DNA from: Rhodopirellula sp.
Lineage (GTDB): Bacteria > Planctomycetota > Planctomycetia > Planctomycetales > Planctomycetaceae
Reading direction: 5' to 3'
NCBI GenBank assembly: GCA_013203845.1
Contig: JABMPE010000549.1
Location: 1-34,665, forward strand
Length of the DNA stretch: 34,665 nucleotides
Below, piece after piece: positions 5,808 to 27,944 of the stretch. The notes under the pieces were generated by a model. It was not told the DNA's origin. It did no database searches and was given only the letters and a program-made list of their open reading frames with translations. Made by a program: the position numbers and the translations under genes. The stretch's first letter is position 1. The number at the start of each line of letters is the position of its first letter.

Positions 5808-6099
5808 CAGGCAACCTTCAGATTCTGTGGGCAATTCCGTCCTGTCGAATTCGCAAGGATTCAGTGTGGGGCAGCACGGTTTCTGTCGCAAGGTCGAACG
5901 TTACTCACGACTGGCCGCCGTTATTCAGTTTCGTAGAAGGTTGAGTGTGTCCGGACGGTTGAACTGCAAGCTCATTCAGTAGACGATTTAGAACGAGGTG
6001 TTCAAGAGATGCCGAATCCGACCGATCAAGAGCATGAGAGTCACTATGGCGAAACGAAAAATAATTCGAAATTACGCGTGAAGATCCTGCGTATCAGAC
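5808..6099. other. Spacer without a recognisable gene
   Basis: These 292 bases hold the upstream region of the DUF1501 gene and the left edge of the decayed patch. A short open stretch from an ATG at 6009 could encode about 34 residues (begins MPNPTDQEHESHYGETK). It may be the original N-terminus of the broken ATPase gene that follows, but I recognise nothing in it. Confidence 0.4.
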
Positions 6100-6381
6100 G
6101 GTCGCGAGGATGAACTGCGTGTCACGCCGGACTGGGGCACCGACGAGGAGACCGGCCAGCAGTGGCTCCGCGTGACCGACAACGGAGCGGGCATGACCGC
6201 GGAGGTGATCAAGAACTACTTTACGCAAATCGACAAAAGCTACTACCGCAGCCCGGAGTTCAACCAGGAACGAACCGCCATGAAAGCCGTTGGCAGAAGT
6301 CATCTCGCGGATCTCGAAGCAGATCGACACGCGTTGTCGTTTGGGATTGCTGGGATTGTGAACTTTAGACGCGAGCGTTAG
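6100..6381 (+). pseudogene. Fragment of a GHKL/Hsp90-like ATPase
   Basis: From about 6112 the frame reads ELRVTPDW, then WLRVTDNGAGMT, then VIKNYFTQIDKSYYRSPEF. The DNGAGMT block is the DxGxG (N2) motif of the Hsp90/histidine-kinase ATPase fold, and the following stretch resembles Hsp90-like or HATPase_c_3 proteins. There is no intact N-terminal adenine-binding helix, and the similarity ends near 6295; the frame closes at 6381. The piece covers less than 100 residues of a family that normally needs several hundred, so it is a remnant. A stop just upstream at 6079-6081 closes the frame on the 5' side. Confidence 0.6.
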
Positions 6382-13607: not shown

Positions 13608-13744
13608 ACCTGATGCGATTCGCGATGTCGAATAGCGCGCTCTTCTGCACGATGGGCGAACCCGCACGGTGCTGCGGCTCGACGATGTCGCGACTGCTTT
13701 CTTCTATCGACGAATACTGCTTGAGAGGCTGCACAGCACACGCG

Positions 13745-13760
13745 TGGCACGAGTTTCGCA
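13745..13760 (+). promoter_or_regulatory. Sigma-54 promoter for the dnaJ-hsp20-lon operon
   Basis: TGGCACGAGTTTCGCA fits 12 of 13 defined positions of the RpoN consensus, with correct GG/GC spacing. Transcription would start near 13771, 77 nt before the dnaJ ATG. No CIRCE element was found in the spacer from 13533 to 13847. Confidence 0.65.
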
Positions 13761-13773
13761 ATTCATAAGGAGA

Positions 13774-13800
13774 CAGACCGTTGCCGCATCCTGCGGTCTG
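13774..13800 (+). promoter_or_regulatory. Alternative hairpins in the dnaJ leader
   Basis: CAGACCG at 13774-13780 pairs with CGGTCTG at 13794-13800. Inside it, CCGCA at 13784-13788 pairs with TGCGG at 13792-13796, so the two stems compete. They lie just after the predicted transcription start. A temperature-sensitive or stability role is possible but not shown; the ribosome site (GAGGG, 5 nt before ATG 13848) is not part of either stem. Confidence 0.4.
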
Positions 13801-13847
13801 GTGTTCGGGTATCACTTCAGATTCGGATCAATGCATCGAGGGATCAC

Positions 13848-14945
13848 ATGCCTGCCGCTCAAATCGATCTCTATGAGGTGCTGGGCGTACCACGGGATGC
13901 CGACTCGGCCGCCATCAAGAAGGCCTATCGAAAGCTCGCTGTCGAGTTTCATCCAGATCGGAACAAATCGCCCGGTGCGGAGGAAAAGTTCAAGGAAGTC
14001 ACCGAAGCATTCGCAGTTCTTTCGGATCCTGAAAAACGCCGCGTGTACGACAGCGGCGGAATGGCGGGGCTCGGTGGCTTCTCGGCTGAAGACCTTTATG
14101 GCGGGGTAGATTGGGGCGACATCGACGGACTGGGTGGTCTCGGTGGCAGCCTGTTTGGATCACTGTTCGGCGGCAGTCGATCTCGCGGGGTGGAGCCTGA
14201 GAGGACGCAGCCGGTCATGGTCGAGCTGCATGTTCCGCTCGAACGAATCATGCACGGTGGAATTGAGCAGGTTCGTGTTCCCGTACGTGGCACATGTTCG
14301 GCGTGTCATGGCACGGGAGCCAGAGCCGGTTCACAACCAAAGAAGTGTCCCGCCTGCGATGGCCAGGGTCGGCAGGTCGCAGCGCAGAGCCGCGGCAACG
14401 CGTCCGTGCAGCAGATTTCGATCTGCAGTCAGTGCCGTGGAACTGGGCAGGTGATCGAGAATCCGTGTCCAACCTGCCATAGCACAGGGCAGTCGACCGA
14501 GACTCAGACAGTAACTGTCGCCATTGTCCCCGGCGTAGCAGACGGAACTGTGATCCGGGTTGAACTGCCGGGCGGATTGAAACGTGAAGCTCGCGTGGTC
14601 GTTCTGAGCCAGCGACATCCGCAACTGGAGCGTCGCGGGCATGATCTGTGGACGGAACATGCCATCGACGTCACCGATGCCGTTCTCGGAACAAAACTCG
14701 ACGTCAGAACTCTCGATGGCGAATGCACCCTCAGGGTTCCGGAAAGAACCAGCCCCGGCGCCGTATTGCGACTTCGCGGGCAGGGACTGCCGATCCCCGG
14801 AACGACTGATCGTGGACATCTCTATGTTGCAGTTCGAGTGCGGATGCCGAGCGAGCTTTCGCCGGAAGTCAGAGCGCTCTATGAGCAGATTCGCTCGCTG
14901 CAGACAGCAGAACAGCGGACACCAGATCAACCACAACCGGTTTAG
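13848..14945 (+). CDS. dnaJ: Chaperone DnaJ (Hsp40, type I)
   Basis: A 365-aa co-chaperone that stimulates DnaK ATPase and delivers unfolded proteins. The J domain occupies residues 1-70 with HPD at 35-37. A Gly/Phe-rich stretch ([14 protein letters not shown]) follows to about residue 110. Four zinc-finger repeats CxxCxGxG lie between about 150 and 215: [24 protein letters not shown] and CPTCHSTG (Ser for the first Gly in the last). The C-terminal substrate-binding domain follows. GAGGG precedes the ATG. No dnaK or grpE is adjacent, so this is perhaps a second, stress-dedicated DnaJ. It is 15 nt from hsp20, and the promoter region holds a sigma-54 match. Confidence 0.95.
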
Positions 14946-14960
14946 GCAAAAGGGATTGCA

Positions 14961-15326
14961 ATGCTCGATGATTTCTTTCTGAAAACGGTACGCCCGATGA
15001 GTCTGCAGCGTGTCAATGCGACGCGCTGGCAGCCAGCGGCGGATGTCTATCGTATGTCGGATGGGTGGCTGCTCAAGGTGGAACTGGCTGGCGTTCGACC
15101 GGATGAGCTGCAGCTGTTGGTTGAAGGCTGCGAAGTCATTCTGTCGGGACGACGGCGAGACTGGATCATCGAACGTGGCAGGCAGTGTCATTCGATGGAA
15201 ATTGCCTACAGCTGTTTCGAACGACGATTCACGCTGCCCTCACGCGTTGACAACTGTCGGATCGCCACCGAATACCGCGACGGCATGCTGGTGATCCGAG
15301 TGGTGACAGGAGGCTCTGAAGGATGA
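14961..15326 (+). CDS. Small heat-shock protein (Hsp20/alpha-crystallin)
   Basis: A 121-aa holding chaperone that binds unfolding proteins without ATP. It consists almost wholly of the alpha-crystallin domain: PAADVYRMSDGWLLKVELAG opens it, ELQLLVEGCEVILSGRR is the middle strand pair, and SCFERRFTLPSRVD matches the conserved region near the end. The C-terminal IxI motif seen in many relatives is not clear; the chain ends GMLVIRVVTGGSEG. AAAAGGG precedes the ATG. Its stop overlaps the lon start (ATGA at 15323-15326), a sign of translational coupling. Confidence 0.93.
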   Translation: MLDDFFLKTVRPMSLQRVNATRWQPAADVYRMSDGWLLKVELAGVRPDELQLLVEGCEVILSGRRRDWIIERGRQCHSMEIAYSCFERRFTLPSRVDNCRIATEYRDGMLVIRVVTGGSEG

Positions 15327-17737
15327 ACGACTTCATTGATGACAACTCCAGTCAGGCCGATGCTGTGGCGGATCCCGCTGCGAATGATCCCGCTGCAACT
15401 GAACTCGTTGCGTCCCGTGAGCTGCCCGTACTTCCTCTGCGTAACAGCGTGCTCTATCCGCAGGTGACAATGCCGTTCGGGGTCGGACGAACGGAATCTA
15501 TTCTGGCGGTCGAGGCTGCGTTGCTGAGCGAAGACAAACACCTGCTCGTTTTTGCACAGAGAAATTCAACGATTGAACAACCATCAGCAGAGGATCTGTA
15601 CGAAGTCGGGACGGAAGCCGTCATCAAACATATGGTTCGCGGTAAAGACGGATTCAATCTGGTCCTGCAAGGTGTCGAAAGAGTTCGGCGTGTTGAAGAG
15701 GTGCAGGCGACTCCGTTTCTGTCGCTGCGAGTCGAATCTTTCCCGTTGCCCGACGACAAGTCACCGGCAACTGAAGCGCTGCTGCTGGAAGTGATGAAGG
15801 TCGCATCGCGTTTTCATGAACTCAGTGACATCGCCGGTGACGTTGACTTCGGACAGTTTCTCAGTCAGCTCGACGATCCACTGCAGACGGTCTTCATGCT
15901 GGGCGCCATGCTTTCTCCTGATCTGGAGAAAGCACAGCGACTACTTGAGATGACCAGTCGCGAGGCTGCGTTCCGAATTCTGCTCGAAGAGCTGTCACAC
16001 GAAGTCCAGGTGCTGGAATTACGTCGTGAGATTGCCAGCCAGACACAATCGGAGATCACCGACGAACAACGCAAGTTCATCCTGCGCAAGCAGCTTCGCA
16101 CCATTCAAAAGGAGCTGGGAGAGCTGAGTCCGGAAGAGGCGGAAGTGATTGACCTGAGAATGAGACTGGATGGGCTGAAAGTCTCCGATGACGTACTGGC
16201 CGAGTGCAATCGGGCACTGGACCGGCTGGAAAGTCTGCCAGCGTCGTCCTCCGAGTACCAGGTGCTGCGATCTTATCTGGAACTTGTATTTGATCTGCCC
16301 TGGTCGGAAGAAACGACGGACAACCTGAACCTCGCATCGGCCCGATCGATTCTTGACGCGGATCATTACGGACTGCGAGATGTCAAAGAACGAATCATCG
16401 AGCAACTCGCCGTACTCCGACTGAATCCCAAAGCGTCGGCTCCAATACTGTGTTTCGTGGGGCCGCCGGGAGTCGGCAAAACATCTCTGGGACAGTCCAT
16501 CGCGCGGTCGCTGGGACGGAAGTTCGAACGCTTCAGTCTGGGCGGGATGCACGATGAGGCCGAGCTGCGCGGGCACCGTCGAACGTACATTGGAGCGATG
16601 CCTGGCCGCATCATCCAGGCGGTCCGACGCGCTTGCGTCAGGAATCCAGTCATTATGCTCGATGAAGTTGACAAGCTCGGACACGACTACCGAGGTGATC
16701 CTGCAGCGGCTTTGCTGGAGATTCTCGATCCGGCTCAGAACTCGACGTTTCGAGACAATTATCTCGATCTGCCGTTTGACCTCTCGAAAGTGTTTTTCAT
16801 TCTGACGGCCAATACGCTTGACACAATCCCGCGACCATTGCTCGACCGAGTCGAAGTGATTCGGCTGTCAGGTTACTCGGATGAAGAGAAGCTGGAGATA
16901 GCGAAGCGATACTTACTGCCGCGACGGCTTGAGCAAACGGGATTGAAGCCGGATGAACTGATAATTCCGGACGAGACCCTGCAGAAAGTTATCCGGCGTT
17001 ACACACGGGAAGCGGGTGTCCGCGACGTTGAGCGTCAGTTGGGGGCATTATCCCGGAAGGTGGCAGTCGACTTCGCCGAGGGACGCACGAAAGCGGTCAT
17101 CGTCGAGTCGGAAGAGCTGTCGAAGTTCCTCGGCAGCGAGCGTTTCTTCCCGGAGGAGGCTCGAAAGGAAATGCCACCGGGAGTGGCGGCCGGCCTGGCA
17201 TGGACGGAATCCGGCGGAGAGGTCCTCTACATTGAGGCGCTGCTGGTGCCGGGCGAGGGCAGCGACATCCTGTTGACAGGTCAGTTGGGCGACGTGATGC
17301 GTGAATCAGCAAGAACTGCACGCAGCTACGTTCTTTCCCACTGTGAGGAACTCGGCATCGATCCTCCACACGGAAATGTCCATCTGCATGTGCCAGCCGG
17401 GGCGGTTCCCAAAGACGGACCATCGGCTGGCATCACGATGGCCACGGCGCTGACGTCTCTGTTTTCGGGGTGTCCGGTTCGTCGCGACACAGCGATGACC
17501 GGCGAGATCACGCTGACGGGTCTGGTGTTGCCCATCGGCGGAATTCGCGAGAAGGCCCTGGCTGCCCGCCGCTCAGGAATGACTCGAATCATTCTGCCAG
17601 CGGCCAACGAAAAGGATCTGGCCAACCTTCCCGAGTCTGTCCGCGAGGACATTGAGTTCATTCCCGTCTCAACAATCAGCGAAGTGCTGGCTGACGCAAT
17701 TCCTGGCTTAGCCGAGCGAGTACCGACCGGGGTTTAA
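15323..17737 (+). CDS. lon: ATP-dependent protease Lon
   Basis: An 804-aa cytoplasmic AAA+ serine protease that degrades damaged and regulatory proteins. The N-terminal LON domain begins at about residue 34 (LPVLPLRNSVLYPQ). The AAA+ module has Walker A GPPGVGKT at 380-387 and Walker B IMLDEVDK. The protease domain has the catalytic dyad S701 (DGPSAGIT) and K744 (REKALAAR), 43 residues apart as in E. coli Lon. Length is normal. The 4-nt overlap with hsp20 puts it at the end of the dnaJ-hsp20-lon operon, joining holding, refolding and degradation in one transcript. Confidence 0.97.
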   Translation: MNDFIDDNSSQADAVADPAANDPAATELVASRELPVLPLRNSVLYPQVTMPFGVGRTESILAVEAALLSEDKHLLVFAQRNSTIEQPSAEDLYEVGTEAVIKHMVRGKDGFNLVLQGVERVRRVEEVQATPFLSLRVESFPLPDDKSPATEALLLEVMKVASRFHELSDIAGDVDFGQFLSQLDDPLQTVFMLGAMLSPDLEKAQRLLEMTSREAAFRILLEELSHEVQVLELRREIASQTQSEITDEQRKFILRKQLRTIQKELGELSPEEAEVIDLRMRLDGLKVSDDVLAECNRALDRLESLPASSSEYQVLRSYLELVFDLPWSEETTDNLNLASARSILDADHYGLRDVKERIIEQLAVLRLNPKASAPILCFVGPPGVGKTSLGQSIARSLGRKFERFSLGGMHDEAELRGHRRTYIGAMPGRIIQAVRRACVRNPVIMLDEVDKLGHDYRGDPAAALLEILDPAQNSTFRDNYLDLPFDLSKVFFILTANTLDTIPRPLLDRVEVIRLSGYSDEEKLEIAKRYLLPRRLEQTGLKPDELIIPDETLQKVIRRYTREAGVRDVERQLGALSRKVAVDFAEGRTKAVIVESEELSKFLGSERFFPEEARKEMPPGVAAGLAWTESGGEVLYIEALLVPGEGSDILLTGQLGDVMRESARTARSYVLSHCEELGIDPPHGNVHLHVPAGAVPKDGPSAGITMATALTSLFSGCPVRRDTAMTGEITLTGLVLPIGGIREKALAARRSGMTRIILPAANEKDLANLPESVREDIEFIPVSTISEVLADAIPGLAERVPTGV

Positions 17738-19497: not shown

Positions 19498-20149
19498 TGT
19501 CCGTTCCATTCGCCGGACAGCGGAAGCGCGTCGACGAGCACATCGGTCAGATGAAGCCGCGCGTCTGGCGTCGACTCTCGTGCGGACCGGGCCTGAAAGG
19601 CGAGCGTCTGTACGACAGGGCCTTCGTCTCGTGGCCTGGTTCGCAGGACGAAGACTTCACACGCGGCTTTCTCGTGCGGCGATCGATCAGCGATCCCGAC
19701 GATCTGGCTTACTACTTCACGAAGGCTCCGAAAGGAACGCACTTGAAGACGCTGGTGCGCATCGCCGGCAGTCGGTGGGCGATCGAAGAATGCTCAACCT
19801 CTGGTTGACCTGAAGAAGCTGGAGCAGGCCAAACAGGAAACCGGCCTGAACGAGTACGAAGTGCGTTCGTGGATCGGCTGGCATCGACACATCACACTGT
19901 CGATGCTGGCTCATGCGACTCTGGCGGTGATTCGCTCGCGAGCCCACTCGGCCGCTTCAAAAAAGACAGCGTCAATCTGATTTCTGTCACCGTCCCCGAA
20001 GTCAGAAAACTCATCACTCGACTCGTATTCCCATGCCACAACTCACCGGACCAAGCACTCGAATGGTCCCACTGGCGACGACGACACCAGCATCACGCTC
20101 GACTCTGCCACTACAGGAAAAGAGGACACGACCCACCAAATCATTGAAA
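19498..20149 (+). pseudogene. Broken IS701-like transposase
   Basis: The central and C-terminal parts of a DDE transposase are spread over shifted frames. From about 19510 the frame reads AGQRKRVDEHIGQ, then LSCGPGLKGERLYDRAFVSW, then GFLVRRSISDP and [12 protein letters not shown], with the catalytic Glu. Here about 27 extra bases and a stop interrupt it. It resumes in another frame as [20 protein letters not shown] and [17 protein letters not shown], and ends near 20147 with VPEVRKLITRLVF and EWSHWRRRHQHHARLCHY. These blocks and their order fit IS701. The N-terminal third is missing. It lies just upstream of the large exported-protein operon. Confidence 0.75.
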
Positions 20150-20288
20150 TACAACTGTAGTACGAAAGAACAAAACACGTAATTGGCGGCAAATCGTTCC
20201 GATGCGTCGCATTCGCACTCATAGTGTGCGGTCAGGCACGGCATAGCTGTGACGACGTCAATTGTCTGACCAGAATGCCATCAGTTGT

Positions 20289-20477: not shown

Positions 20478-23400
20478 ATGGCCCGACATTCTGGTTTGAT
20501 CGTCGTTCGTGCAGCTCTGACTGCGGCTTTGCTTGTGGCGTCTATCGCCGAGATTAGTGCCCAGGACGGGCTCTACAATGTAGAGCTGAGTCGCATGGAA
20601 TTTTATCGCCTGCTCGATGCCAAAGAGCAGGACCTGGTGCGGAGCCTGTCGTACAACACTGATGGCTCGGTAAATCGCGGTACGAAGGAGTACCAGAAGG
20701 CCTTCAAAGAATTCAGCGACTACGAAAAACAACTACGGAAGGATTACATGTCGCGGCGGGGGCGGGACGATGCCCTGGTGAATGTCTTTGAAGATGCCGG
20801 ATTCGATCCCGATCAACGGAGTCGACTTTTTTCAGATAGCGGAACAGCCCCCGGCGAGCGACTTGGTGGTCCCCAGGGCCGAAACACAATCGATCGCGCG
20901 CCGATTACTTCACAGGACACGCAGACTCCTCATCGTGATGTGAAACCTGGCGATTCGAGTTCGGTTCCGCCGAGCGCGATTGATCGCGGAGAAAAGGACT
21001 TTTACCGCGGCGAACTGGGGGATCGCGACATTACGGCGAAATCAGCCGACGACGTGAGTCGTATCAAACAGACGGCAGAAGCAAAGGGTTACACCGTTAT
21101 TGATTCGGGTGATGGCTATATCCACATCAAGGAGTTGGACACGATTGTCTGGCACGAAGACAGCGATGCCTATCGGCAATATCTGAAGGACAAGGATGCG
21201 TTCAAATCCAGGCTGGCCAACCCAGAATACATTGCCGGTGGCAAAGACGCGGGAGCCATTCAGCAGGTCTCGAAGGTACAGAACCAGTTCAAAGCCGGGC
21301 AACCGCCGGGTAGCCGTGTTCCGTCGGATCAGCTTTCACTGGAACGTGCGAAGTACGCTCAGAATCTGGGCAAGGCCGGGCACAAGATCGACTCAACGAT
21401 TGTGCAACGTGGTCAGCCAACCGTAACGACTACGGAAACCCGGGACAAATTTCGAAAACTTGCGCAGGGACAGGATCAGCGGGTTGTCCTGGGAACCTTC
21501 GGTGAAAAAGATCCGGCTCACGTCGACAGAGTGCTGAGCAAACTCCGCGATGAAGACGTGGTTCAGACACTGAAAGACAGCATCGACGCCGATCACGAAT
21601 CGCGAGTCAACCAGAAAAAGTATCTCCACGACCGAAACCGCGAGCTGGCGGAAGGAATTGCCGAAGCCACGGAAAACGGCAACGTCATGGATCAGCGTCT
21701 GCGTGAAGCAGAACTCGCTGACAACACTCGCCGCATCGCGGAGCTTGACGATATTGATCGAGTTGAACAGATGACGAAGGACGTACTCGTCGAGAAGAAT
21801 CCTCAGATACGCCGTAAGATTTTCGATATCGAAGACCCGGTTCATCCTCGGCACGGCGGCCCAGCCGGTGTCGATCCCGATGTGCCCCGCCCCGATGCCG
21901 ATTCTTCACACGTTGCTCGCCCACCGGACGCCGATCCAGGAACGACCGGTTCGCGGCCCACGGAAAAGCCTCGCACCCGGCTCAGCAAAGCGAAGTCTCT
22001 GGTCGCGGAGTACGGAGCCGATGCGTTCGGGGCCGCGATGAGTCTTTACAACCGTTACACCGAAGAGTCCGAACGAGCGACTCGCGAGGGGAAACCAGTT
22101 TCGCAGGCTCGTGTCACGCTGCTGGTTGCCGCCGACCTGGCAAATATCACCGACGTTTACGAGGGACTAACGGGGCTGGCCGATGAAACAACGACCGGAA
22201 CATCGGACTACATCAAAGACCAGCTCAAGTACTACGAGCGTGCCGGAGTGGATGCGTCGAAGTTCAGCTTTCGAGCAGCACTTGCCCTGAAGGCTTCCGT
22301 ACGAGGAACAATCCTCGGGACATGGCAGGGCTGCAAAGCACTGCCGGGTGTCAACACAGGCATTGGCGCGGCAGAAGGAATCTACGCAATCGGGAGTGCC
22401 GGTTCCGACGCTGCTCGCGAGCAGGAACACACGGCTCTCGTCGAAGAGTTCAACCGAATCACTCAGTCAGACAATCGTGACGCGGCACTCGCCAGTGCAA
22501 AGCAAATGGCAACGCGAATCCGGACATTGCACGCGTCGCACCAGAAGTTCGATGGAGCCCTTAGAGCCATTGATGCAGAACTCACCGGGATGCTCGAAAA
22601 ACTTCAACCGGTTTCCGAGCCGCTTAAGCAGCGTGAAGAGTACGTCTGGAACATCGTTGAGGCTGCTCGAAAACTGCATGCGGAAGGCAACTTCAGCCAC
22701 GCGGCATTGTTCGATCGGCTGGATGCCTCGGTCCTGCGTTTCAACACGATTGCGAAACTGGCGGACGAAGCGCGGAGTTCAGTGGAATCCGGTAAGGCCG
22801 AGATGTCTTCAACGAAGGCGGTCTATGAAGGTCTGGTCCGGGACTTTGAAATCGAGAACGCACGCCACGGAGACACCGTTACTGCGGCACAGGGTGTCAT
22901 GCGTCTGGGTGAGGGACTTGCAGAAACCGGGTCTATCGCCGGACTCCTGGATTCGCTGCGCAACGACATGACGGTGATTAATCAGGCGGACTCCGCGGCC
23001 GTGGACATGCTGCTGAGCTATCGCGACGCGCTGAAGTACTTGCGTCAGGTCCAGCCGCCTCTGTTCCAGGCTCAGGCTTCGCTGGATCGCGGGTTGAAAT
23101 TCTTTCGCAACGAAGCCATTCGAAAAGACGATTCTGGAATGGCTCAGCAACTCGCAAGTCTCCAGGCCGTTCTGGAAGACACGCAGATCGATCCAGGTCG
23201 CCTCGATTACTACTCCAGTCGAGTCGATTCACTGGTCAGCGAAGTCACTCGAATCGGTCAGATCACCCGCGACATGAACGTGCCACCCGAAAGCGGTTTC
23301 GAGAAGTTCGATCTTTACGCCGAACTGGCGAGCGAAGCGGCAACACCGCTGCAGCAGTCGATCGCATCGACCAGCCAGGCACGTGAAGGTGCTGTGGAAG

Positions 23401-24371
23401 CGTTGAAGCGTCTGCGGGAATCGCTGCTGACAACACCAATCCCAGTTCCGGACACATCAAAACCAACGGCACCGCCACCGGGAAGTTACGTGGTGGCAAC
23501 AGCGATTAACCGCCGTGACAAACGGAACCTGACAATCGAGGAAGTGCAGGAGGATATGACGAATGGTCCGTTCGGGGATGATGGCAACGTGGGAATCGCC
23601 TTCAACAACCGCACCGGTGAAGCAACCGGCGATCTGCACTACGAGAAGTTGGCCGTGATGGGACGAACCGAGTCCGGTAGTCTGGTCTGGGCCTGTGCCT
23701 ACGTCACCCTCGAAGGCCGCGGACGTGTCGACGTCAAAACCGGCAGGTTTGAACTTTCGCTGCAACCCAATAAATATTCTGGACTGGGACCTGTCACCAC
23801 TTCCCCTAACGAACGACCACGGGGAATAGGTATCGTCCAACACGTGAATGGCGATGAATCGTGGGGGTTCGGGAGCGTCTGGGGAGAAACGGTCCGCCGA
23901 TCGACGGCCGTTAAAGCAGTTGGTATTGATCCGAAAAACGTGACCGCTCGTGTGACCGGTCAGATTGACATGGCCCGAGGCGGGGGCACTGCCAGAATAC
24001 AACTGGGCTCTCTTCCCGAAGAGACGTGGACGACAGCGCCCATCGGGAGTGTTGTCCTGCGTTGGCCGGTTCACCCCAGTTCTTACGAGTCACTCAGGAA
24101 ATATCGCGTTACTTTTTTCAGCCTTACGTTGTGGCCGACTTCTCGCGAAGCATCTGACGCGGCTCGAAAAGGCGGGCTGTCAGACAGCCTGACCGTTCTT
24201 GAGCGAAACTACGATTTCAGACCTGACCCACGCAGAATACGACTGCGAGTGGGACGTGTGATCATCGCAACCGAAACCCTATATCCGCTCCGTGATCTCA
24301 AACCGGCGGCAGAAGTGATCTTTGCTCCTTTCGTCACAGGTCTTCGAGAAATGGGGCTGGACGATGAATAG
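20478..24371 (+). CDS. Giant exported coiled-coil protein of unknown function (1297 aa)
   Basis: The start is the ATG at 20478, preceded by GAGGAAG at 5 nt. Residues 1-28 are a signal peptide (cleavage after ISA). The parts in order are: a charged, mostly helical region to about 450; a Pro/Asp-rich linker at about 454-505; a helical block with apolar stretches at about 545-571 (ARVTLLVAADLANITDVYEG) and 601-645 (rich in Gly and Ala); a long helical, coiled-coil region to about 980; a Pro-rich linker at about 985-1005; and a beta-rich C-terminal domain to 1297. Only a few Cys and no known catalytic motif are seen. I do not recognise the family. It overlaps the next gene by 8 nt, so they are probably translated together. 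It might be a scaffold or a surface or compartment protein. Confidence 0.85.
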   Translation: MARHSGLIVVRAALTAALLVASIAEISAQDGLYNVELSRMEFYRLLDAKEQDLVRSLSYNTDGSVNRGTKEYQKAFKEFSDYEKQLRKDYMSRRGRDDALVNVFEDAGFDPDQRSRLFSDSGTAPGERLGGPQGRNTIDRAPITSQDTQTPHRDVKPGDSSSVPPSAIDRGEKDFYRGELGDRDITAKSADDVSRIKQTAEAKGYTVIDSGDGYIHIKELDTIVWHEDSDAYRQYLKDKDAFKSRLANPEYIAGGKDAGAIQQVSKVQNQFKAGQPPGSRVPSDQLSLERAKYAQNLGKAGHKIDSTIVQRGQPTVTTTETRDKFRKLAQGQDQRVVLGTFGEKDPAHVDRVLSKLRDEDVVQTLKDSIDADHESRVNQKKYLHDRNRELAEGIAEATENGNVMDQRLREAELADNTRRIAELDDIDRVEQMTKDVLVEKNPQIRRKIFDIEDPVHPRHGGPAGVDPDVPRPDADSSHVARPPDADPGTTGSRPTEKPRTRLSKAKSLVAEYGADAFGAAMSLYNRYTEESERATREGKPVSQARVTLLVAADLANITDVYEGLTGLADETTTGTSDYIKDQLKYYERAGVDASKFSFRAALALKASVRGTILGTWQGCKALPGVNTGIGAAEGIYAIGSAGSDAAREQEHTALVEEFNRITQSDNRDAALASAKQMATRIRTLHASHQKFDGALRAIDAELTGMLEKLQPVSEPLKQREEYVWNIVEAARKLHAEGNFSHAALFDRLDASVLRFNTIAKLADEARSSVESGKAEMSSTKAVYEGLVRDFEIENARHGDTVTAAQGVMRLGEGLAETGSIAGLLDSLRNDMTVINQADSAAVDMLLSYRDALKYLRQVQPPLFQAQASLDRGLKFFRNEAIRKDDSGMAQQLASLQAVLEDTQIDPGRLDYYSSRVDSLVSEVTRIGQITRDMNVPPESGFEKFDLYAELASEAATPLQQSIASTSQAREGAVEALKRLRESLLTTPIPVPDTSKPTAPPPGSYVVATAINRRDKRNLTIEEVQEDMTNGPFGDDGNVGIAFNNRTGEATGDLHYEKLAVMGRTESGSLVWACAYVTLEGRGRVDVKTGRFELSLQPNKYSGLGPVTTSPNERPRGIGIVQHVNGDESWGFGSVWGETVRRSTAVKAVGIDPKNVTARVTGQIDMARGGGTARIQLGSLPEETWTTAPIGSVVLRWPVHPSSYESLRKYRVTFFSLTLWPTSREASDAARKGGLSDSLTVLERNYDFRPDPRRIRLRVGRVIIATETLYPLRDLKPAAEVIFAPFVTGLREMGLDDE

Positions 24372-25428
24372 TTTCGTCAGAACCTGGATTACATTCGTTG
24401 CTGGTGCGTTAATTGTGCTGTCTGGCAGTCTGTCGTCGGCAACAGCCGGTATTGAGCAGGATCATCCCTACGCCGGGTTTGCGATCTCCGTTCCCGACGG
24501 ATGGATGGTCAGCCGGTCGTCGCGAGGACTCCGACTGGCTCGTGACGGTGCGGTCATCAACGTTGTCCTGCAGAAGCTACAGAATGCGAACTCGGCACAG
24601 TTCTTCGAAGAGCTTGAAAAAGTTGCAGCGACTGAAGGACCGCCGAATGGATCGCCAACAAAGACAGCGTCTTTAACGCCAGCGCTGTTCAAACGAACGG
24701 CGACGAAAACTGTCGAACTGCTTGGCCAGCCAGCACAGTGTGTCGAGTATCTGACCGGAACCACAAAGAATGACCGTCGAAGCGATGTGGCGTTTGTCGT
24801 CCACGAGGGCAAAGGGTTCGTCCTCAGTCTGGACTGCGCCGCCGCGAATCATGCGTCGGAATATGAGGTCTTCAAAGGCGTTCTCCGCAGCTTTCGGATT
24901 ATCCCAGTCAGTCAGCAGCCGTTCCCGGTGCCATCTTCGGCAGAGACCAGTCGTCCGGCTTCGAAAGAGTCATCCTCACCGTCAAATGCTCATGCTGGGA
25001 AAGAACCGGCTGCTCCTGTCGAAAAACTGTCAGACGACGAAATCCAAGTGATGCTCGAAGCTTCGGGGATCTCTGAGGTGAAACGCGAAGCGCCGGACAG
25101 CGACGAAACGCTGTTTAAGATGCAGGCAGGCGATCGTGTTTTCGGAATCGTCAACGATCGAAAGCACGGACAGCTTCGATGCTACGCCTTCTTCGGAGCC
25201 GGCGGTGAGAGTGTCACGCTTCGTCGACTGCGGACCGTTAACGCCTGGAACGCGGACAACCGCTTCGCCAAAGCGTTTGTGTACGACAACGGGAACTGGG
25301 TACTGGAGAGCGACCTGCGTTATGCCCAGGGGACTCGGCCGGAAGCAGTCATGAGCCACGTCACCCGATTCGCTGAAGCGGTGCCACGATTTGTGAAACA
25401 CGTCGAAGAGATGCTGGCGGCCAACTGA
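24364..25428 (+). CDS. Exported protein: PsbP/DUF1795-like domain plus YbjN-like domain
   Basis: The ATG at 24364 lies inside the end of the giant gene and gives 354 aa. Residues 1-28 are a signal peptide. Residues about 32-180 start AGFAISVPDGWMVSRSSRGL and end GVLRSFRII; this is the pattern of PsbP/Mog1-like DUF1795 domains, in which a loose beta sheet binds a partner. A Ser/Pro/Ala-rich linker spans about 185-221. Residues 222-354 start LSDDEIQVMLEASG, contain YAFFGAGGESVTL, VNAWNAD and KAFVYDNGNWVLESDLRYA, and match the YbjN fold (related to type III secretion chaperones). YbjN proteins are usually cytoplasmic, so an exported one is notable. The domain calls are by eye. Confidence 0.82.
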   Translation: MNSFVRTWITFVAGALIVLSGSLSSATAGIEQDHPYAGFAISVPDGWMVSRSSRGLRLARDGAVINVVLQKLQNANSAQFFEELEKVAATEGPPNGSPTKTASLTPALFKRTATKTVELLGQPAQCVEYLTGTTKNDRRSDVAFVVHEGKGFVLSLDCAAANHASEYEVFKGVLRSFRIIPVSQQPFPVPSSAETSRPASKESSSPSNAHAGKEPAAPVEKLSDDEIQVMLEASGISEVKREAPDSDETLFKMQAGDRVFGIVNDRKHGQLRCYAFFGAGGESVTLRRLRTVNAWNADNRFAKAFVYDNGNWVLESDLRYAQGTRPEAVMSHVTRFAEAVPRFVKHVEEMLAAN

Positions 25429-25466
25429 TACTGCCGAAACGACTTTGAATCTGTCGGAGGTTTGAG

Positions 25467-26783
25467 ATGTATTCTGATTGGCCGTTTCTGGACACAAACC
25501 TGGAAACTCTTAGCAGACGTTTACAGCGATCTTTTCTGCCATTAGTAGTCGGCATGGTGACGTTTGCCGGTGCGATCGTTGTTCACGCTGCGGAGCCAGC
25601 CGTCGAACCTGGCGGGGTTGGCATTCGCGATGAAGCGCTCCTCGAAATGGCCAGACAGGCTGGAGCGACGGCCATCGAAGAAAACGAACCGGAAATCGGC
25701 ATCGGACACTATGTGATTCAACTCAGTGGACGCCGCCTGCTGCTGACAAATGATCGAATGGACGGCTTCGTTCAGTTGAGGTTCTCATGGCGGACCCAGC
25801 GGGAGATCGGCGAAGACGACCTGCTGCGAATCAATATGTGGAATCAGGAACCAGGCGTTGGTCGAGCGACTCTGCTGGAACTTCCTCTGCAGGGCGAGGT
25901 CCACACAATCTGGGTGCTTGAAGACGAGTTCGAGTTCCAGCCGAATGTGCCACGTGCAGCTCCGGTCGAATTCATCAAGCGGTTCGGTTATCTCGCACAG
26001 CGGTTTGATGATTACGTCAAAGGCAATCTTGAGGCGGTTCCAACTCTCGATGACAAACCGGGGGACAGGATTCCGGTCCGTTATCCCGGTCTGGAACCTC
26101 CAGTGGAAACCGTTGAAACTGGAGCTCCCGGCACTGACCGGGAAAAGCCTCAGCGGATCACGTCCGCGCTGGATGGTCCGCTGTCCGCAGTCGCTGCTCC
26201 TGCCGGTGCGAGCCTCGCCATGATCGCGGCGAAGCTGGGTGATCGCGAGCTGCTGACTCGATCGCTCGAGTTACTTGAACAGGCCGTTGATCGCAATCCA
26301 AATGACGTTCGCGTGGCAACTCAACTCGCCGATGCCTATGTGGCCACCGGGCGCGAACTGGCAATAACGCAGGCTATTCAGGTCTATCGATCGCAACTCA
26401 AGGACAATCCTAACGCGGGGCCTCTGCTGTCTCGAATCGCAGATGCCTATCAACAACTTGGCAATGTCGACGACGCACTTGATTATGCTGCACGCCGAGC
26501 GCGTCTCCCTGATGCTCAGGATCGCTACGCAGGCACTCTGCAGGTTGCACTGATTTCCATTGAGGCTGATCAATCGGTCCGAGGGCTCGAAGTGGCTGAG
26601 CCGATCTACGTGACGCATCCCGACGACAATGTGGTCGCCCTCATTGTGGCAACGCTGATGTTTGAGTCGAAGCATGACCACGACGCCAGAAAGCTGCTCG
26701 CTGGACTGATTGATCGGCTGCCGGATGACCACATCGTATCGATTAACGCTCGCAGTATGCTCGCCCGTCGAGAACGGGATTAG
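25467..26783 (+). CDS. Exported protein: YbjN-like domain plus TPR repeats
   Basis: A 438-aa protein starting at 25467 with GGAGG 7 nt before the ATG, 38 nt after the previous gene. A long N-terminal signal (apolar part FLPLVVGMVTFAGAIVV, end HAA near 42) suggests export. Residues about 55-190 hold a second YbjN-like domain: EMARQAGATAIEEN, then DGFVQLRFSWRTQ, INMWNQEPGVGRATLLELPL and LEDEFEFQPNVPR. A linker follows. From about 245 come helical pairs of the TPR type (LLEQAVDRNPNDVRVATQLA, then RIADAYQQLGNVDDALDYAA), which usually bind partner proteins. Together with the previous two genes it forms an exported set; two YbjN-type proteins in a row suggest a pair that docks on the giant protein. 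Confidence 0.8.
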   Translation: MYSDWPFLDTNLETLSRRLQRSFLPLVVGMVTFAGAIVVHAAEPAVEPGGVGIRDEALLEMARQAGATAIEENEPEIGIGHYVIQLSGRRLLLTNDRMDGFVQLRFSWRTQREIGEDDLLRINMWNQEPGVGRATLLELPLQGEVHTIWVLEDEFEFQPNVPRAAPVEFIKRFGYLAQRFDDYVKGNLEAVPTLDDKPGDRIPVRYPGLEPPVETVETGAPGTDREKPQRITSALDGPLSAVAAPAGASLAMIAAKLGDRELLTRSLELLEQAVDRNPNDVRVATQLADAYVATGRELAITQAIQVYRSQLKDNPNAGPLLSRIADAYQQLGNVDDALDYAARRARLPDAQDRYAGTLQVALISIEADQSVRGLEVAEPIYVTHPDDNVVALIVATLMFESKHDHDARKLLAGLIDRLPDDHIVSINARSMLARRERD

Positions 26784-26930: not shown

Positions 26931-27944
26931 TTATCGCTGATCGAACCACTCCGCGGGAACTTCAAGAGTCCAGACTTCACCATTCAGTGGTTTGGCATGC
27001 CCTCCGGTTACCCAGATTTTGTCCTGGTACACGAACGTCGAATGCTCATGGCGTTCCTTCCAGACGACATCAGAGTTGAGTTGCGTCCAGGCCTTTCCGT
27101 CTTTCGAATACCACACGTCGTCGAGGTTCGTATGTCCGTTTGTCTTGTTCCAGCCTCCCAGAACCCACATCCGGTCACGGTAGACAACGGATGAAAACCA
27201 GATACGCGCTGGCCACGGTGCGTTCGCTGTTTCCTGCCTCCAGTTGACGCCGTCGGCGGAACTCCAGACATCATTCAGAACCTGATACCTGGGAACATAG
27301 TTTCCGCCGCCGATGACGTAGAGCCGATCATTCAGAATCACTGCCTGATGGTACGCTCGCGGAGACCATTCCGCATTTTCGGTTTCCAGCTTCCACGTTT
27401 TTCCATCTTCTGACGACCACACATCGTTTTTCAGGCTTTTGTCGTCTCCGAAGTAGTAGTTCTCTGTTCCACCGAGCAGCCAAAGCTTGTTCTTGAACAC
27501 GACCAGTCCACCTGCGATCCGCGGACTCCAACCGGCGGCTGTGGTGACCTGAGTCCAGTCGACACCGTCAGTAGAAGACCAGACCTGGTTGCTCGCCGAA
27601 TGATTCGGCAGTCGGCCGTTGTGCCATCCTCCCATGAAGTACATCTTCCCTTGAAAAACCGTCGCCATGGAGAAATCACTGTGCTTCCAGGCAGCCTGTT
27701 TTGTGACCAGATTCCAGCGTTTGCCGTCAACGGTGTTCCAGACGTCGCGGGGTGGGGACGAATACGAATCGAACCAGCCACCCATGATCCAGAGGCGATC
27801 CTTGTAAACCAGTTCGACCGACGAATCCCGAGGTTGCCAGTCCGCGTTCTCCGTGACCTTAACCCAATCGAGCTTTCGCTCCTGGCCGTACAACACCGAA
27901 CCTATCAGCAGGGTTAACGTCATCACAGATATCTGAATCTTCAT
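26931..27944 (-). CDS. Exported kelch-repeat protein
   Basis: A 337-aa protein with a signal peptide (apolar VMTLTLLIGSVLYG, residues 7-20). About six repeats of the form LWIMGGW, MYFMGGW, LWLLGGT, LYVIGGG, MWVLGGW, IWVTGGH alternate with DVWNTVDGKRW, QVWSSTDGVDW and DVWSSEDGKTW. The double Gly and the spaced Trp are kelch features, and the set would form one six-bladed beta propeller. There are no extra domains and no Cys-Tyr pair of the galactose oxidase type that I can identify. It could bind a sugar or a protein outside the cell. It diverges from the beta-helix gene. Confidence 0.9.
   Translation of the reverse strand: MKIQISVMTLTLLIGSVLYGQERKLDWVKVTENADWQPRDSSVELVYKDRLWIMGGWFDSYSSPPRDVWNTVDGKRWNLVTKQAAWKHSDFSMATVFQGKMYFMGGWHNGRLPNHSASNQVWSSTDGVDWTQVTTAAGWSPRIAGGLVVFKNKLWLLGGTENYYFGDDKSLKNDVWSSEDGKTWKLETENAEWSPRAYHQAVILNDRLYVIGGGNYVPRYQVLNDVWSSADGVNWRQETANAPWPARIWFSSVVYRDRMWVLGGWNKTNGHTNLDDVWYSKDGKAWTQLNSDVVWKERHEHSTFVYQDKIWVTGGHAKPLNGEVWTLEVPAEWFDQR

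Follow-up and report, generated by a model that had tools for sequence, protein, structure and literature searches.

An undescribed gene pair for an exported TPR protein and a giant coiled-coil-like partner, with an apparently rearranged and extended copy in a Rhodopirellula genome

Three adjacent genes for exported proteins in a Rhodopirellula genome raise the question of whether they form a system of their own, and which of the three belong together. They lie on contig JABMPE010000549.1, analysed here over a stretch of 34,665 nucleotides (the window). Three plus-strand open reading frames, all uninterrupted, occupy 6.3 kb in the order giant (P0001), P0002, P0003. The giant and P0002 overlap by 8 nt, P0002 and P0003 are 38 nt apart, and hydropathy places a hydrophobic signal-like N-terminus on each protein, as the original prediction had described. 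Base composition is uniform along the locus. The features discussed below are as follows.

20478..24371, +, giant P0001 (1297 aa, ATG start), diverged within its family
20478..20561, +, signal-peptide-like N-terminus of the giant (residues 1-28, boundary ISA/QD; hydropathy and sequence)
21027..21158, +, small beta-alpha-beta-beta domain (residues 184-227; conserved G-L-x-D-R-D ... GY ... ELDTxVW in the alignment)
21840..21992, +, proline-rich linker 1 (about residues 455-505)
22155..22427, +, conserved core region with GT(Y/W)xGxKxLPG (about residues 560-650)
22407..23432, +, long helical, coiled-coil-like rod (residues 644-985, AF2)
23439..23501, +, proline-rich linker 2 (about residues 988-1008, from the sequence)
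23502..24368, +, beta-rich C-terminal part (AF2, low confidence)
24364..25428, +, P0002 (354 aa, ATG start), exported, PsbP-like plus YbjN
24475..24900, +, PsbP-like domain of P0002 (suggestive, under the cut-off)
25033..25410, +, YbjN domain (PF10722) of P0002 (over the Pfam cut-off)
25467..26783, +, P0003 (438 aa), exported, YbjN-like plus TPR, the TPR partner of the giant
25623..26036, +, YbjN-like domain of P0003, where other family members have leucine-rich repeats (LRR)
26205..26777, +, TPR partner domain of P0003 (126 bits to the eight-partner profile)

Directly upstream of the giant is a frame-broken stretch resembling a transposase remnant (19500-20150, +); its pieces have no Pfam match and the transposase identity is unconfirmed. 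Other neighbours include genes for a Lon protease (15323-17737, +) and DnaJ (13848-14945, +) and, past P0003, a convergent gene for an exported Kelch protein (26931-27944, -). No RNA families or tRNAs were found in the window, and its proteins have no match up to E 0.1 in PADLOC (anti-phage defence).

We then examined the giant. Its length, two proline-rich linkers (11 prolines in residues 451-500 and 7 in 951-1000), long helices and beta-rich end agree with the earlier description, the helical and beta assignments being those of low-confidence AF2 models. No internal transmembrane segment was found by hydropathy. The protein resembles no known family in the libraries searched: it has no match in Pfam, NCBIfam or PADLOC and no sequence relative in the PDB, and its sole match (17.7 bits) is to a PHROG of unknown function. 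A search of PDB sequences with the giant profile returned designed bundles and generic coiled coils only. AF2 models of a Victivallales relative and of the window giant (7-8 sequences; mean pLDDT 53 and 48, with unresolved ends) are weak but both show long helices, the longest of 98 residues, that form a rod, and a low-confidence beta-rich end. The rod covers residues 285-618 in the Victivallales giant and 644-985 in the window giant, where the beta-alpha-beta-beta domain has a pLDDT of about 65-75. In fold searches with the models, the rod matches only coiled coils and helix bundles (Foldseek TM-scores 0.1-0.3), and a BFVD search gave only long helical viral proteins (TM 0.05-0.13).

Relatives of the giant are diverged. 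As a single-sequence query against 294 genomes of the phylum it matched its own genome alone, and a contig scan with the same sequence found nothing; family-level and profile searches were needed to reach further. Within the family these uncovered relatives in three genomes (G302, G316 and G364), together with two fragments at contig ends of the Rhodopirellula assembly itself (C700 and C666); single-sequence matches of the window giant are E 1.9e-26 to G364 and 4.9e-15 to G316. Profile searches added two genomes from other families of the phylum (G162 and G461), a scan of named genomes added one Victivallales, one Lentisphaerae and one Desulfobulbaceae genome, and a class search with the giant profile found G750, of the same class as the last. 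The giant is thus known from other planctomycetes, Victivallales/Lentisphaerae and Desulfobulbia, and is rare: counting partial and degraded copies, it occurs in 6/170 genomes of the family, 6/392 of the phylum and 2/106 of the Desulfobulbaceae class, so that independent cases are few. Ten genomes with weak matches were left aside: seven (G068, G108, G160, G174, G252, G277 and G493; E 1e-5 to 6e-4) vanished with a second profile, and three (G334, G410 and G612, the last an unrelated coiled-coil protein) were left out of the counts. A viral contig scan gave 367 pattern matches and no giant relative, and a plasmid scan gave none either.

The giants of this family measure about 900-1740 aa and have a signal-like N-terminus, no clear further transmembrane segment and a variable beta-rich end, with PKD and CarboxypepD among the C-terminal modules. 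The window giant covers positions 1-1170 of the 1183 in the profile, of which it is itself a part. It retains the DRD/ELDTxVW motif and the GTxxGxKxLPG core, and the last half of its C-terminal part aligns with the end domain of relatives. It has no PKD domain, which is present in the G316 giant at 34 bits. Absent too is TESSVGLVYDT, the most conserved core motif, which follows GTxxGxKxLPG in relatives; because this motif has been lost, the window giant may function differently from them. Some copies are incomplete or unusual. In G254, a 715-aa protein (L067:3268-5415) corresponds to the N-terminal part of the family only; its gene sits after one for a large Ig-like-looking protein, and a search of G254 for a TPR partner was negative. 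The degraded end piece in G283 (L033:7537-8556, -), without a TPR partner, is likely a remnant of loss. The Lentisphaerae locus (L043:7059-14658) has CarboxypepD-like domains in both TPR partner and giant, and the end of the giant seems to run on in a second overlapping frame (13720-14658).

In all ten loci with upstream DNA, an exported-TPR gene precedes the giant and its stop overlaps the giant start. The overlap is 4 nt in eight loci (L011, L010, L012, L015, L037, L043, L044 and L082) and 8 nt in two (L038 and L041), and these loci span Planctomycetota, Victivallales/Lentisphaerae and Desulfobulbia. G750 (L082) was found by its giant alone, and the predicted TPR partner was then confirmed upstream (247 bits to the TPR profile). 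At E 1e-12 across 61 genomes, that profile detects a partner in each of the nine that have a full giant and in none of the 52 that lack one (Fisher p 6e-11); eight of the nine positives helped to build it, so the independent weight lies with G750, the Rhodopirellula genome and the 52 negatives. TPR and giant trees broadly agree, and the window forms a long separate branch in both. Since giant and TPR homologues occur together in every complete locus, the grouping in the window is more than chance. What is conserved is a pair of genes, so far undescribed, usually in the order TPR then giant. The original prediction of an undescribed exported system stands in this form, and its three-gene unit does not; of the two partners it had proposed for the giant, the TPR protein is upheld as a dedicated one, and P0002 is not part of the conserved unit. 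The libraries searched contain no curated family for the giant or the pair, and open-licence papers yielded nothing relevant. The biochemical role of the pair may yet prove ordinary.

The TPR partner in the window is P0003, described earlier as YbjN-like plus TPR. Its TPR repeats are clear in Pfam, and the partner TPR domains are homologous to this region and in register with it (BLASTP E 2.5e-19 to 7e-11). With a profile of eight partner TPR domains, built without the window and the paralogue from its own genome, P0003 scores 126 bits and the partner on C700 158 bits, everything else in this genome reaching at most 31. The YbjN-like part lies below Pfam detection (no PF10722 match to the N-terminal part) and was recognised by its similarity to the YbjN domain of P0002 (BLASTP E 2e-05) and a common N-x-W-N...E motif. 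The N-terminal module varies across TPR partners (LRR, CarboxypepD, YbjN, extra TPRs or none), the nearest family members of P0003 carrying LRR. Membrane attachment varies as well: some partners start with a single transmembrane anchor and others with a signal, the G162 partner has a lipobox, and those of Victivallales and Lentisphaerae have a two-transmembrane hairpin. The loop between the two segments of this hairpin is positive, so that under the positive-inside rule the TPR domain would lie in the periplasm.

The middle gene, P0002, stands apart. Its YbjN domain is secure at 42-45 bits against a gathering threshold of 22, the sole YbjN match in this genome. The PsbP/DUF1795 likeness is only suggestive: searched alone, the domain reaches 17.3 bits to PsbP (PF01789; cut-off 23.5), with nearly the full profile covered. 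In the family search P0002 adjoins a giant in the window only, and its nearest YbjN relatives there are short stand-alone exported proteins in G312 and G291; the possibility that homologues are found apart in most genomes, considered at the outset, is thus borne out by the middle gene but not by the giant and TPR genes. In G312 (L084:5111-5644, -, and 5822-6295, +) the stand-alone exported YbjN gene is divergent to genes for small exported proteins, PsbP/DUF1795-like on visual inspection but with no Pfam match; domain kinds adjacent there are fused in P0002. A convergent gene for a PsbP-like exported protein (L044:7074-8195, -; 23.3 bits, just below the cut-off) lies beside the Desulfobulbaceae pair. 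Pfam searches found no PsbP domains in the tails of giants.

Compared with other loci, the window departs from the pair in several ways. The usual TPR-then-giant order with its 4- or 8-nt overlap is absent, a YbjN-like module stands where LRR is usual, and the PsbP-like/YbjN gene is inserted in the middle. Judged from these sequences, the window appears to be a rearranged, extended copy of the two-gene pair; the full triplet was not found elsewhere in the 170 genomes of the family. The same assembly also holds a canonical copy, an LRR-TPR gene plus giant, on two contigs (G000:C700:3-2374, L035; G000:C666:3-2738, L036). The fragments span adjoining parts of the giant model (2-367 and 373-1183) and so are apparently one gene split by assembly; with 6.4% contamination in this assembly, the two copies need not belong to one organism.

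How might the pair work? The shared overlap and strict co-occurrence indicate that TPR protein and giant act together, and an exported TPR domain at the membrane combined with a soluble exported rod would have them meet in the periplasm. From this we infer that the TPR protein serves in docking or assembly and that the rod spans a distance or presents its end. Our favoured reading, held tentatively at a little under an even chance, is that a periplasmic TPR protein docks or assembles a co-translated rod with swappable end domains in the envelope. The product of the first gene would be either held in the inner membrane or exported through it, so that its TPR domain lies in the periplasm. That of the second would be a soluble exported giant which begins with a small N-terminal part, alpha/beta or helical, and continues with a short conserved core, the coiled-coil-like rod and the variable beta-rich end. 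Made in coupled fashion, the TPR protein might capture the giant on its arrival in the periplasm and hold it at the membrane, while the rod would extend outward and present the beta-rich end as a head that binds or has a structural role. Swappable modules could set the bound target, on the TPR side LRR, CarboxypepD, YbjN, extra TPRs or none, and on the giant side PKD, CarboxypepD and other beta domains; the PsbP-like/YbjN protein of the window is possibly an extra adaptor. More speculatively, and with appreciable doubt, the pair could be a previously unrecognised envelope system, patchy over Planctomycetota, Lentisphaerae/Victivallales and Desulfobulbia, in which an inner-membrane TPR dock is co-translated with a long coiled-coil rod whose exchangeable head reaches through the periplasm or outside the cell. 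The window might then illustrate module swapping and adaptor capture (YbjN, PsbP-like), with YbjN domains serving as extracytoplasmic adaptors.

The binding range of TPR domains is wide, so the target of the partner could instead be a third protein, or its task export or folding. One such scheme makes it an export or folding chaperone for a giant that leaves the cell as a secreted or antagonistic protein, a coiled-coil stalk bearing a variable head, much as in umbrella particles or ClyA-type alpha-helical proteins. Gene order (chaperone then client) and variable C-terminal ends would fit, as would VIA-align, which ranks the Umb1 umbrella particle top for both giant models (Z 15.6 and 13.4) and lists many ClyA-type proteins (Z 8-11, large rmsd), in each case over the rod only. 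However, helical models reach Z 13-14 through arrangement alone, so we draw no relationship from these scores, and the Foldseek TM-scores are low. The giants also lack any strongly hydrophobic segment for insertion into a membrane, searches turned up neither a toxin domain nor an immunity gene nor a defence profile, and the TPR protein too is an exported one; we regard this scheme as quite unlikely. A pair that is an architectural spacer or anchor between the inner membrane and the wall or outer membrane, with no specific ligand, would suit a long soluble exported rod with TPR at the membrane, and the CarboxypepD part of the Lentisphaerae giant weakly matches an anammox S-layer model (30.6 bits). 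Yet the very patchy occurrence within one family argues against housekeeping architecture and the variable end modules suggest binding, which makes a plain spacer unlikely.

The window itself could be a decaying or chimeric copy with no function of its own, its middle gene a chance insertion. Loss of the core motif, reversed gene order, the possible transposase remnant directly upstream and the fact that P0002 is beside no other giant found all point that way. Against this, the 6.3 kb hold three intact frames, their overlap and close spacing are operon-like, a YbjN module is common to two of the genes and base composition is uniform, so that we consider decay improbable. What began as a single-genome curiosity becomes a conserved gene pair that is open to testing and small enough to be co-expressed and co-purified. 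The YbjN domain, little understood in its role, gains an exported partner context.

Several known systems resemble parts of the pair. The class II TPR chaperone/translocator pairs of type III secretion (SycD-YopD, PMC3443056) likewise encode a small TPR protein with a long helical partner, a comparison of how they work only. Type III chaperones are cytoplasmic and have no signal peptide, whereas P0002, P0003 and their relatives have signal-like or transmembrane N-termini; the giant is signal-bearing too and does not have the strongly hydrophobic segments of a translocator. We noticed no secretion-system genes in the flanks read. The Streptomyces umbrella toxin particle Umb1 (8w20; PMC11062931) offers a likeness in its long helical stalk. 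Umbrella toxins combine such a stalk with ALF repeats, an adaptor, lectins and a toxin domain; the comparison covered the stalk alone, and neither ALF repeats nor lectin partners nor a toxin domain have been identified for the giants. ClyA-type proteins form a five-helix bundle with a hydrophobic tongue; the rod aligns with them at Z 8-11 with large rmsd, and the giants have no strongly hydrophobic internal segment. The N-terminal domain of P0002 aligns along almost the entire PsbP model (PF01789), yet is not a member by the cut-off. The YbjN family (PF10722) includes AmyR of Erwinia amylovora and DR1245 of Deinococcus. P0002 scores above the Pfam cut-off for this family; in contrast to these, the YbjN domains here follow a signal-like N-terminus, are fused to PsbP-like or TPR parts and are encoded in an operon with a candidate giant client.
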